Under the pieces are notes generated by a model that made no database searches, had not been told where the DNA came from, and saw only the letters and a program-made list of their open reading frames with translations. A program made the position numbers and the translations under genes. Shown here piece by piece: positions 3,319 through 47,960 of a DNA stretch of 54,748 nucleotides; position 1 is the stretch's first letter; each line of letters opens with the position of its first letter. This stretch comes from Candidatus Moranbacteria bacterium GW2011_GWC2_40_12 (GTDB lineage: Bacteria > Patescibacteriota > Minisyncoccia > Moranbacterales > UBA11712), in assembly GCA_000995965.1 (NCBI GenBank), contig LBYD01000005.1, forward strand, positions 1-54,748, given 5' to 3'.

Positions 3319-4806
3319 TTATTTTATTCTCGGAAACAAAACGTCCGTCTTTTTTTCTTCCAAGGCCTTTTTTATCTTCTTTGCTGTCTCCGGCATGAAC
3401 AGAACAAGCAGATCTGAAATAAAATCCAAGTCTGACGCTAATTTCTGCATAACTTCTTTAAATTTATCTTCATTACTTTTAACAAGCTCCCACGGCTTGT
3501 TTTCTTCAATGTATTTGTCGTCTTGGCGAATTATCTTCCAAATATAATTCAATGCGCCATTTAGCTCAATTTTTTCAATAAAATCTGAAATTTTGTCATT
3601 TGGATTTTGAACTTGATTTGGAATTTGGAATTTGGAATTTGAAATCAATTTCACGGTACGTGAAATCAAGTTTCCCAGTCCGTTCGCAAGATCCGCGTTG
3701 TATTTTTCAATCATCCGCTCCATCGTCATATCCACATCTTCGCCAAATGTTCCGGCACTCATGAGAAGATAGCGCGTGCCGTCCGCACCGAATTTTTCGA
3801 GCATCTCATCAATTGAAATCGCGTTCCCCAATGTTTTGCTCATTTTCCTTCCGCGGGACAAAATATGCCCGTGGACAAAAATCATTTTAGGAAGCTCTAT
3901 TCCGAGATGTAAGAGCATTATCGGCCAAATGGTCGCGTGAACGCGCAGAATGTCTTTCCCGATCAGCTGCACATCCGCCGGCCAAAATTTCAAAAAGCTT
4001 GGCTTTGAGGAATTGCGAGAGCTCTGCTCTCGCAAGGGAAAAGCCGAGCTTTGGAAAAAATTCGCATCTCCGTCCCAGCCCAAACCGGTCAGATAATTCA
4101 AAAACGCGTCTGCCCAGACATAAGTCGTATGTTCCTTGTCAAAGGGAAGAGTGACGCCCCAAGAAACATTTTTTCGCGAAATGGAAACATCCCGAAGCTC
4201 CTGGCTCTCAAGAAAAGACAAAATTTCTTTTTTATATTTATGCGGAGCGATCCGAAATTCATCGCTCTTTATTTTTTCAATGATTTTTTTTTGCGCCTCT
4301 CCCGACATTTTGAGCAGATAGCATTCTTCTTTCACTTTCTCGACCACGATATCATGGTCCGGACAGCGCCCGTCAATCAAATCTTTTTCGCTTTTGAACT
4401 GCTCGCAAGCGACGCAATAATATCCTTCGTATTCTCCTTTGTATATCGCCCCTTTGTCGTATAAGGTCTGCAAAGCTTTTTGGACGGAGCTTTTGTGCTT
4501 TTCATCCGTCGTGCGGATGAAATGGTCGTATTTGATATTGAGTTTCTTCCAATAATCCTTGAACTCCTGCGAAATTTCGTCGACAAAAGTCTGCGGATCC
4601 TTTTTGGCGTCTTCGGCTTTCTTTTGGATATTTAGTCCATGCTCATCCGTTCCGGTCAGGAAATATACTTCTTCGCCCCGCGACTTGCGAAACCGCGCCA
4701 AAACATCCGCCGCGATGGTCGTATACGCATGCCCGATATGCGGTTTCGCGTTGACGTAATATATTGGGGTTGTGATATAGAATTTATTTTTCATTCTTAA
4801 GCTCAA
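3319..4806 (-). CDS. metG: methionyl-tRNA synthetase
   Basis: FYITTPIYYVNAKPHIGHAYTTIAADVLAR, FVHGHILSRGRKMSKTLGN (KMSKS-type) motifs; contains palindromic and heptamer insertions. Confidence 0.95.
   Translation of the reverse strand: MSLRMKNKFYITTPIYYVNAKPHIGHAYTTIAADVLARFRKSRGEEVYFLTGTDEHGLNIQKKAEDAKKDPQTFVDEISQEFKDYWKKLNIKYDHFIRTTDEKHKSSVQKALQTLYDKGAIYKGEYEGYYCVACEQFKSEKDLIDGRCPDHDIVVEKVKEECYLLKMSGEAQKKIIEKIKSDEFRIAPHKYKKEILSFLESQELRDVSISRKNVSWGVTLPFDKEHTTYVWADAFLNYLTGLGWDGDANFFQSSAFPLREQSSRNSSKPSFLKFWPADVQLIGKDILRVHATIWPIMLLHLGIELPKMIFVHGHILSRGRKMSKTLGNAISIDEMLEKFGADGTRYLLMSAGTFGEDVDMTMERMIEKYNADLANGLGNLISRTVKLISNSKFQIPNQVQNPNDKISDFIEKIELNGALNYIWKIIRQDDKYIEENKPWELVKSNEDKFKEVMQKLASDLDFISDLLVLFMPETAKKIKKALEEKKTDVLFPRIK
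3994..4052. repeat. palindromic element family 1, copy in metG
   Basis: AAAGCTTGGCTTTGAGGAATTGCGAGAGCTCTGCTCTCGCAAGGGAAAAGCCGAGCTTT; outer 13-bp and inner 10-bp stems. Confidence 0.9.
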
Positions 4807-5519
4807 TAAACGATTACGACAAATTCCCCTTTATTCTTATCTCTGTTATTTCTATAAAATCCCAAAATTTCACGTATATTTCCTCTTTTGATTTCCTCGA
4901 ACATCTTCGTCAGTTCCCGTCCCACAATCAGTTTAGCATCTGGTTTCAATTTTTCCAGCAGTTCGAGGTTTTTGAGAAACCGGTAGGGCGATTCGAAATA
5001 GATAACGGGATATTTCGCTTCCGCCACTCCCCGGAAAAAAGTCTCTCTTCCCTTTTTGTGCGGCGGAAATCCGAGGAAAGAAAATTTGCTCATATTTATC
5101 CCGGCGACACTCGCAATCGCCATCACAGCCGACGCCCCCGGGATGGGAATAATTTCAATCTCTTTCCTAAGATCCGATCTTAGGATTGCCGAAGATCGGA
5201 TCTTAGGATCCAAAAGCGAAGCAATCAGCTCGTTTCCAGGATCGCTGACTCCAGGCGTTCCCGCGTCGCTCACTAGCGCGAGAGTCTTTCCATTTTCGAG
5301 ATGCTCAATGATTTTTTCCACCCTTGAGAGCTTCGAATGATGGTGATATGATAAAAGAGGTTTTTGAATTTCATACCGGTCCAATAGTTTTTTCGTGACC
5401 CGCGTGTCCTCGCACAAAATGAGGTTGGCTTCTTTGAGAATACGAAGAGCCCGAAGAGTGATGTCTTCCAAGTTGCCGATAGGGGTGGCCACGATATATA
5501 ATTTTCCGGATTTATCCAT
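4803..5519 (-). CDS. rsmI: 16S rRNA (cytidine1402-2'-O)-methyltransferase
   Basis: LYIVATPIGNLEDITLRAL, LCEDTRVTKKLL, LVSDAGTPGVSDPG, PIPGASA motifs. Confidence 0.93.
   Translation of the reverse strand: MDKSGKLYIVATPIGNLEDITLRALRILKEANLILCEDTRVTKKLLDRYEIQKPLLSYHHHSKLSRVEKIIEHLENGKTLALVSDAGTPGVSDPGNELIASLLDPKIRSSAILRSDLRKEIEIIPIPGASAVMAIASVAGINMSKFSFLGFPPHKKGRETFFRGVAEAKYPVIYFESPYRFLKNLELLEKLKPDAKLIVGRELTKMFEEIKRGNIREILGFYRNNRDKNKGEFVVIVY
5166..5207. repeat. palindromic element family 2, copy in rsmI
   Basis: CCTAAGATCCGATCTT-AGGATTGCCG-AAGATCGGATCTTAGG perfect 16-bp inverted repeat. Confidence 0.88.
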
Positions 5520-11298: not shown

Positions 11299-11355
11299 AA
11301 TGTATTTTCATCAACATCTTACTACCATATATCGTAGTAAATTTATATCATGGAT

Positions 11356-11381
11356 TTTCGCTACAACTAATTGTAGTGAAA
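11356..11381. repeat. palindrome family 4, copy 1
   Basis: TTTCGCTACAACTAATTGTAGTGAAA. Confidence 0.75.
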
Positions 11382-11693: not shown

Positions 11694-11806
11694 GACAGAA
11701 TACCCCCTTCGTATTTTTTCTCTCCCTAAAAACGCTCAAATTTTTCAAGAACAAAAAATCAAATACTCTTCACTTTCATATATGCATACGTGAAAGTGTG
11801 TGTATT

Positions 11807-11832
11807 TTTCACTACAACTAGTTGTAGTGAAA
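11807..11832. repeat. palindrome family 4, copy 2 (perfect 26-bp palindrome)
   Basis: TTTCACTACAACTAGTTGTAGTGAAA. Confidence 0.9.
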
Positions 11833-19194: not shown

Positions 19195-20421
<1,227 letters not shown>

Positions 20422-29524: not shown

Positions 29525-29529
29525 AAAAA

Positions 29530-29553
29530 TTCACTACAATTAGTTGTAGTGAA
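29530..29553. repeat. palindrome family 4, copy 3
   Basis: TTCACTACAATTAGTTGTAGTGAA. Confidence 0.85.
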
Positions 29554-29712
29554 AAGCTTTAGTAATCTAATATACTGAAGTGTTTTTATAATTTATAAAT
29601 TAGTCAAAAATATGCATATGCATAAAAATGACTAATTTGATAGAAATAAAAATATCCGGCACAAGCCGGATACTAAATACAATATACTAATTACCAGATA
29701 CCAGATACTAAA

Positions 29713-46132: not shown

Positions 46133-47932
46133 ATGGAAATTCGAAACATCGCCATCATTGCCCATGTCGACCACGGCAAAACGACCATCACCGACGCCAT
46201 CATGCGCCAGACCGGAATGGAAAAAGATGAAGCCGCGACTATGGACAGCAACGCTCTTGAAAAAGAGCGCGGCATCACAATTTATTCCAAGAACACTTCT
46301 GTGTTCTATAAAGATACAAAAATCAACATTGTGGACACCCCAGGCCACGCTGATTTTGGTTCGGAAGTGGAACGGGTTTTGCGCTCGATTGACAGCGTTC
46401 TTCTGGTCGTTGACGCGCAGGAAGGTCCGATGCCCCAGACAAGATTCGTGCTCAAAAAATCCCTTGAGCTGGGCCTGAAGCCGATTGTCGTGATCAACAA
46501 AATAGACAAGCCCGCCGCCGACCCGGAGATGGCGCAGGAAAAAGTTTTTGAACTTTTTTTGGATCTTGGCGCGACTGACGAACAGCTTGATTTTGAAACC
46601 GTGTATGCGATTGGCCGCGATGGCATCGCTAAAATCCATTTGGACGACGATTCAAAGGACCTTTCGCCGCTGCTTGATATAATTCTCAAAAAAGTCCCGC
46701 CCGCCTCCCGAAATACCAGTGCCCCTTTCCGCTTCCAGCCTTTCAGTCTTGGTTATGATAATTTTCTCGGAAGGCTCGCCATCGGCCGAGTGCATGAAGG
46801 AACCATCAGGAACGGCGAAGTTTTTGTGAGAAAACCCGACGGAGAAACCCGCAAGGGAAAAATCATCAAAATGTTCACTTTCGAAGGGCTCGAAAAAACA
46901 GAAGTGGGTGAAGCTTTGGCCGGCGATATTGTGATGGTCGCGGGCCTGCCGGACATTGACATCGGAGAGACTATTTGCGAGAAGGAAAGCCAGGAACCGC
47001 TTCCGGCCATCAAAATTGACGAACCGACTATTTCGCTAAATTTTCTGGTCAATGACTCTCCCTTTGCCGGTCGCGAGGGAAAATTCGTGACGACAAAACA
47101 AATTCGCGAGCGCCTTGAGAAAGAACTGGAAGTGAATGTCGGGCTCAAAATTGATTTTAATCCGCCGGCCGGCGGACCGGAACACTGGAAAGTATTCGGA
47201 CGGGGAGAGCTTCATATCGCCATTCTTCTTGAAAATATGCGCCGTGAAGGATATGAGCTCCAGGTTTCTCAGCCGCAGGTGATCGTGAAAGAAGAGAATG
47301 GAAAGAAACTCGAGCCGTTTGAAGAAGTGACGATTGACGTTCCGGAAAAATCTTCGGGTGTCGTGATTGAAACTTTGGGAAAAAGAAAAGGAGTTATGTC
47401 CCAAATGGAGCAGCGCGGAAATCAAGTCAGGATGATTTTTGAAGTGCCGACTCGAGGCATCCTGGGATACCGGGGACAATTTTTGATAGACACCCGCGGG
47501 GAAGGGATATTTTCCAGCCGCTTTCTTGAGTTTCGGCCTTTCACGGGTGAAATTTCAAAGCGCGATACAGGATCGATGGTCTCGATGGCCACGGGAAAAG
47601 CGCTTGGTTTTTCACTGGCTAACCTGCAGGAGCGCGGGTCCTTGTATATCGAGCCGACCACCGAAGTTTATGAGGGAATGGTCATTGGAAATGTCTCCAA
47701 AGGCCACGATATGGCAGTGAACCCGATCAAAGGAAAACAGCTCACCAATATGCGCGCCTCCGGAGCGGACGAAGCCATCAGCCTTACTCCTCCGCTGAAA
47801 CTCACCATCGAACGGGGACTCGAAATTATGGGCGAGGATGAATATCTGGAGATAACCCCCGAAAGCGTGAGACTGCGCAAGCAATTCCTCACCGAAAATG
47901 AAAGAATCCAAGCCGGACGGAAAAAGAAATAA
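46133..47932 (+). CDS. typA: translational GTPase TypA/BipA
   Basis: [50 protein letters not shown]. Confidence 0.95.
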
Positions 47933-47933
47933 T

Positions 47934-47960
47934 TCTTTCCTAAGATCCGATCTTAGGAAA
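47934..47960. repeat. palindromic element family 2, intergenic copy after typA
   Basis: TCTTTCCTAAGATCCGATCTTAGGA 25 bp identical to 5161-5185. Confidence 0.85.

Follow-up and report, generated by a model that had tools for sequence, protein, structure and literature searches.

Within the 54,748-nt stretch of DNA that was analyzed (hereafter, the window), a 59-bp palindromic element is embedded in metG, with a related copy residing in tgt. The genes and features concerned are the following:

3319..4806, minus strand: metG, methionine--tRNA ligase, host gene (TIGR00398, E 4e-131)
3994..4052, plus strand: 59-bp palindromic element within metG, adding 20 residues to the protein
3994..4006, plus strand: left outer arm of the element, AAAGCTTGGCTTT, a small palindrome on its own, REP-like
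4013..4035, plus strand: inner hairpin, TTGCGAGAGC TCT GCTCTCGCAA
4040..4052, plus strand: right outer arm, AAAGCCGAGCTTT, repeating the left arm in inverted orientation
19195..20409, minus strand: tgt, tRNA-guanine transglycosylase, host gene (TIGR00430, E 4e-144)
19753..19811, plus strand: second copy of the element in the window, within tgt, adding ~20 residues to Tgt

The metG element is a two-level palindrome, in which the outer arms surround an inner stem, and both the arms and the inner stem were located as described in the original prediction, which had proposed a stem-loop at this position. Its predicted RNA fold (-31 kcal/mol) is far more stable than the shuffle mean of -15.2 (z = -5.8), with 0 of 200 shuffles scoring as well. 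Relative to metG, the element is on the non-coding strand, and it is translated in frame with its host. The 17-nt start of the element occurs exactly twice in the window, in metG and in tgt, and the tgt copy has the same orientation and codon phase as the one in metG; a copy in tgt in the same reading frame had been proposed originally. Judged by the family models, both host genes are intact. Alignment of MetG with seven relatives having an empty site delimits an insert of exactly 20 residues; three further relatives carry different inserts, so that the peptide is not a common property of MetG orthologues and the extra in-frame peptide claimed in the original prediction is indeed an addition. 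The position of the insert coincides with a break in the alignment to the solved methionyl-tRNA synthetase (MetRS) of A. aeolicus (2csx chain A, residues 241/248), and this 241-248 break is a length-variable site of MetRS. Similarly, the Tgt insert falls within a gap of the alignment to a solved Tgt homologue. Tgt contains a second insert as well (20045-20110), at a loop where relatives have other inserts of varied length.

A covariance model built from 21 copies detects ~33 copies of the element in the 1.14-Mb source genome, in agreement with the expectation that metG and tgt are not its only hosts; plain BLAST yields 20 matches at E < 1e-5. Two-sided changes are found in 17 of the 23 base pairs, and both helices covary strongly between copies (59 covarying cells vs 15 in shuffles, with 0/500 shuffles as high). 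The outer arm exists in several versions, namely, AAAGCTYGGCTTT, AAAGTCCGGCTTT, AAGGTTCGACCTT, AAGGTTTGGCCTT and AAAGCTAAGCTTT, and the opposite arm always compensates. Since the arms are near-palindromes in their own right, some of the covariation between them could stem from symmetry within each arm; however, AAGGTTTGGCCTT and AAAGTCCGGCTTT retain complete long-range pairing despite mismatches in the self-hairpin.

The element is present in all 9 genomes of the family to which the source organism belongs, with greatly differing copy numbers, and in 19 of the 133 genomes of the order. Among 389 genomes sampled across the phylum, nothing convincing turned up outside the order, only weak short matches in three genomes. 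When 85,488 species were scanned for the exact 21-mer AAAGCTTGGCTTTGAGGAATT, it was recovered in 27 contigs and was absent from every Rickettsia genome in the collection. The carriers with specific names are Candidatus Moranbacteria or Moraniibacteriota, a lineage of Patescibacteria, which bears out the guess of a CPR host made from the sequence; the other contigs are labelled merely bacterium, uncultured bacterium or Patescibacteria. No match to the element was obtained in viral contigs or in phage and plasmid collections, and Rfam contained no relevant match.

To characterize the genomic locations of the element, 148 copies (30 from the source genome and 118 from relatives) were classified as in-gene, that is, within an ORF of 200 aa or longer and 25 or more residues away from both of its ends, or as intergenic-like, with no spanning ORF of at least 110 aa. 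By these definitions, 88 copies reside in genes and 24 are intergenic-like. In the source genome, the hosts assigned by family models comprise, apart from MetG and Tgt, CCA transferase, TrmD, LigA, UvrA, ArgS, MiaB, XseA, an Elp3-like protein, TsaD (two copies), TatD, TsaE, PcrA/UvrD and MnmA; LeuS, LepA, MurB, MurE, MiaA, GlmM and CopA were named by eye from sequence among the hosts in relatives. By raw counts with no matched background, at least 12 of the ~29 recognisable hosts act on tRNA and 5 function in DNA repair. Overall, the dispersed family is real and well supported, and it resides within genes to an unusual degree.

Five of the six frames of the element are usually open, as base composition predicts. 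The in-gene copies have on average 4.34 open frames vs 4.28 in shuffles, and stop-codon avoidance as a special design was accordingly rejected. The canonical lengths of the element are 59 and 56 bp, for net insertions of 60 and 57 bp, and lengths of the form 3n+2 are found in 74 of the 88 in-gene and 18 of the 24 intergenic copies, with no clear difference; a frame-neutral length is thus a property of the family. The choice of frame is non-uniform: the six frames are used 2, 18, 10, 25, 2 and 31 times in genes, against 2, 11, 19, 22, 20 and 14 expected from the intergenic copies (chi-square p 3e-8, calculated on copies that are not independent of one another). The avoided frame, open in 121 copies and used in 2 of 88, is the sole frame with a positive mean hydropathy.

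Sites that are empty in relatives were identified for MetG, CCA, TatD, GT2, UvrA, ArgS and others, and the same loop can be found among relatives in three states: empty, occupied by a copy of the element or occupied by an unrelated repeat. Copies at a shared loop often differ in orientation, frame or arm version, indicating independent insertion. At the glycosyltransferase site LSDNKGVGELLEAF^WKLLLGGFG, for instance, three genomes have a copy in the same orientation, a fourth has one in the opposite orientation, and four are empty. In the CCA gene of one relative (G002), a full element is located between both arms of an older one, and similar nesting was observed in MetG and TatD of another relative (G005) and in TrmD of the source genome. 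The combination of empty sites, mixed states and nesting points to repeated insertion filtered by protein tolerance. Other recurrent peptides, including AFAKASAGKDG, KYQIPNTKYQI-like and LEKGE...FLKGE sequences, were encountered as inserts in MetG and other host loops of relatives (L086, L092, L089, L099-L113), which suggests that these genomes harbor several more protein-coding repeat families.

Additional dispersed palindromes, distinct from the element, are located in the window:

4803-5519, minus strand: rsmI, host of two CCTAAGATCSGATCTTAGG palindromes
5161..5208, plus strand: two adjacent single CCTAAGATCSGATCTTAGG palindromes, of another REP family, in frame in rsmI
47934-47958: single CCTAAGATCSGATCTTAGG palindrome, immediately following the stop codon of the ORF that ends at 47932
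11355-11381, 11806-11832 and 29528-29554: TTTTCACTACAACTAGTTGTAGTGAAA palindromes

The source genome contains 12 copies of CCTAAGATCSGATCTTAGG, with 0 in the reversed control, and in one relative (G003) this palindrome flanks a gene for a REP-associated tyrosine transposase (RAYT). Seven copies of TTTTCACTACAACTAGTTGTAGTGAAA were found in the source genome, located close to the ends of ORFs and, in one case, within ArgS (G000:C4:64656).

Six RAYT-type Y1 transposases of ~215-225 aa, which match PF01797 and contain the motif NPNHYHF, are encoded in the source genome. They display the features expected of RAYTs, namely, the Y1 fold, the HUH-like motif and an organization as single genes between palindromes. 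Two of the six were checked against NF047646, the NCBIfam model of REP-associated tyrosine transposases, and matched it weakly (28 bits vs a cut-off of 80), so that these proteins are divergent members of the group; PADLOC gave no defence assignment for the RAYT. In the source genome and its relatives, the RAYT genes are usually bracketed by a gene-specific palindrome of 17-25 bp, which directly precedes the start and directly follows the stop; an automatic test found such matching flanks in 25 of the first 42 RAYT-type loci.

Exact arms of the element are present in the flanks of 5 of 56 RAYTs, which corresponds to a 5.6-fold enrichment relative to the remainder of these loci (p 2.7e-4). In the relative G019, a RAYT gene has AAAGCCGAGCTTT, identical to the right arm of the metG element, on one side and AAAGCTCGGCTTT on the other, and two RAYT genes of G005 are flanked by AAGGTTCGACCTT and AAGGTTCGGCCTT, the arm types of the element copies in G005 itself. 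An arm is also found at a RAYT gene in G495 (AAGGTTGAACCTT) and in G002 (AAAGTCGAACTTT). In addition, Y1 genes are present in 18 of 19 genomes carrying the element vs 57 of 114 non-carriers (Fisher p 2.5e-4), an association that is partly confounded by kinship. The arms of the main subfamily do not recur in identical form in the palindromes beside any of the six RAYT genes in the source genome. Two carriers depart from the overall pattern: G008 has 2-4 copies of the element and no Y1 match, and G004 has 2 copies and IS200-type matches only; in both cases, the copies could be relics. In G007 (C12, 8496-12151; L195, L284), two RAYT genes adjoin apparent duplicated fragments of the ligA start, with a copy of the element between them.

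In-frame palindromes are best known from Rickettsia, and the original prediction envisaged a new selfish family with similar behavior. As summarised in the review PMC10969869 (Ogata et al. 2000, 2002), Rickettsia palindromic elements (RPEs) are dispersed palindromes of about 150 bp located both in and outside genes, many of them in frame in housekeeping genes, whose products appear to be still functional. The element described here is likewise a dispersed palindrome that resides in frame in protein genes as well as in non-coding DNA. It differs from the RPEs, at least as that summary describes them, in the host phylum and in a length of ~60 bp, as well as in the presence of RAYT genes with matching palindromes; the exact 21-mer scan points to a different sequence as well. 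The family is new and RPE-like in its behavior, as predicted, and its selfish spread is a probable interpretation of these patterns. In-frame palindromes are not unique to Rickettsia: this kind of insertion was already known, given that intragenic REPs have been reported in many bacteria (PMC3733652). Because the open-access RPE literature that we surveyed names no mover or transposase, the best-supported relationship of the element is with the RAYT/REP systems rather than with RPEs.

A REPIN is an inverted doublet of REP palindromes that is able to form one hairpin and was defined in extragenic space (Bertels and Rainey 2011, PMC3116915). The element resembles REPINs in consisting of two inverted REP-like sequences with a spacer, foldable into one hairpin, and the RAYT genes are flanked by palindromes in a REPtron-like layout, with several RAYTs per genome, each having its own palindrome. 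However, with 88 of 148 copies in genes, its location is not extragenic, and the GT[AG]G tetranucleotide at the hairpin foot of canonical REPs is absent from the consensus of 21 copies, although GTAG...CTAC is present in some of the RAYT palindromes in these genomes. For these two reasons, we do not file the element as a REPIN. Arms matching a RAYT flank within the same genome were found for some relatives only, such as G005, and not for the main subfamily of the source genome. REPs in frame within transposase genes have been described, along with REP-like structures that, in some subclasses, lack GTAG (Quentin et al. 2018, PMC6006769). A further precedent comes from Di Nocera et al. 2013 (PMC3733652), who reported intragenic GTAG and CGTC REPs, encoding 20-30 residues, in many bacteria; uvrA, uvrD and the genes for DNA ligase and tRNA synthetases are among the hosts, and they recur here. 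Unlike those REPs, most of which are intergenic, more than half of the copies of the element are in genes, and it carries no GTAG or CGTC tag. The element also shares with MITEs a short, non-autonomous structure with terminal inverted repeats, but the net insertion in MetG is 60 bp for a 59-bp unit, with no obvious constant duplication in the flanks by eye, and a non-exhaustive search for a parent insertion sequence with the ends of the element found none. Searches of an open-access library, which lacks most subscription journals and preprints, turned up no description of such elements in Patescibacteria. What is new is the family, its host group and the link to RAYTs; the principle, that of intragenic REPs and RPEs, is known.

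We consider it probable (roughly 0.6) that the element is a non-autonomous, REPIN-like mobile palindrome moved by RAYT-like Y1 transposases. Under this scenario, the element, which consists of two inverted REP-type 13-mers flanking a third hairpin, would be copied or moved as folded single-stranded DNA by transposases encoded elsewhere in the genome. Copies landing in surface or linker loops may persist as mostly hydrophilic inserts of ~20 residues, and harmful ones would be purged by selection; survival in loops is expected because a net addition of ~60 or 57 bp keeps the frame and five of the six frames are usually open. Neither population-level polymorphism nor a transposition intermediate of the element was seen. 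A less likely alternative is that the palindrome is mobilized by other means, for example, by hairpin-templated copying during replication or repair or by an insertion sequence since lost, with the RAYT palindromes resembling the arms merely because both are short palindromes. Such a history would agree with the lack of exact main arms at the RAYTs of the source genome, with the copies in G008, where no Y1 gene was detected, and with arms and hairpins that diverge and yet stay paired, as hairpin-templated correction would produce. It is at odds with the enrichment of exact 13-mer arms in the immediate flanks of five RAYT genes and with Y1 presence tracking that of the element.

Explanations that dispense with mobility or selfishness appear much weaker. 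A selected function of the inserts, as peptide modules or RNA structures shared by tRNA and DNA-repair genes, could be read from the conserved structure and from the tRNA-acting hosts, a raw count of at least 12 of ~29 with no measured background. We regard this as quite improbable, given that different frames and both orientations at one site yield unrelated peptides, that close relatives lack the insert or have a different one and that many copies are intergenic. Even less credible is the possibility that the copies are ancient low-complexity insertions passed on vertically, or else assembly artefacts. Some sites are indeed common to members of the genus in the same frame (CCA and the Elp3-like gene in the source genome and G002), but subfamilies and orientations differ and copies nest at the same sites, the assemblies are independent and come from many projects, and conserved 21-mers occur in unrelated contigs.

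Returning to RAYT-mediated movement, the mechanism is testable because the candidate transposases carry the same 13-mer arms beside their genes. More tentatively, and at somewhat less than even odds, the order that includes Moranbacteria might host a RAYT-driven palindrome whose lengths have been tuned by life in genes and which is disseminated among essential housekeeping genes in the form of frame-neutral peptide inserts. If so, protein-coding palindromes of the RPE type could be accounted for by a transposase, and new protein loops would have a standing source. Since 2000, the in-frame palindromes of Rickettsia have stood as a curiosity; the element is an independent example from a distant lineage with reduced genomes. 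Core tRNA and DNA-repair enzymes can accommodate 20-residue insertions at the same loops time and again, a tolerance that bears on the annotation and phylogenetics of these genomes and on the origin of new protein loops.
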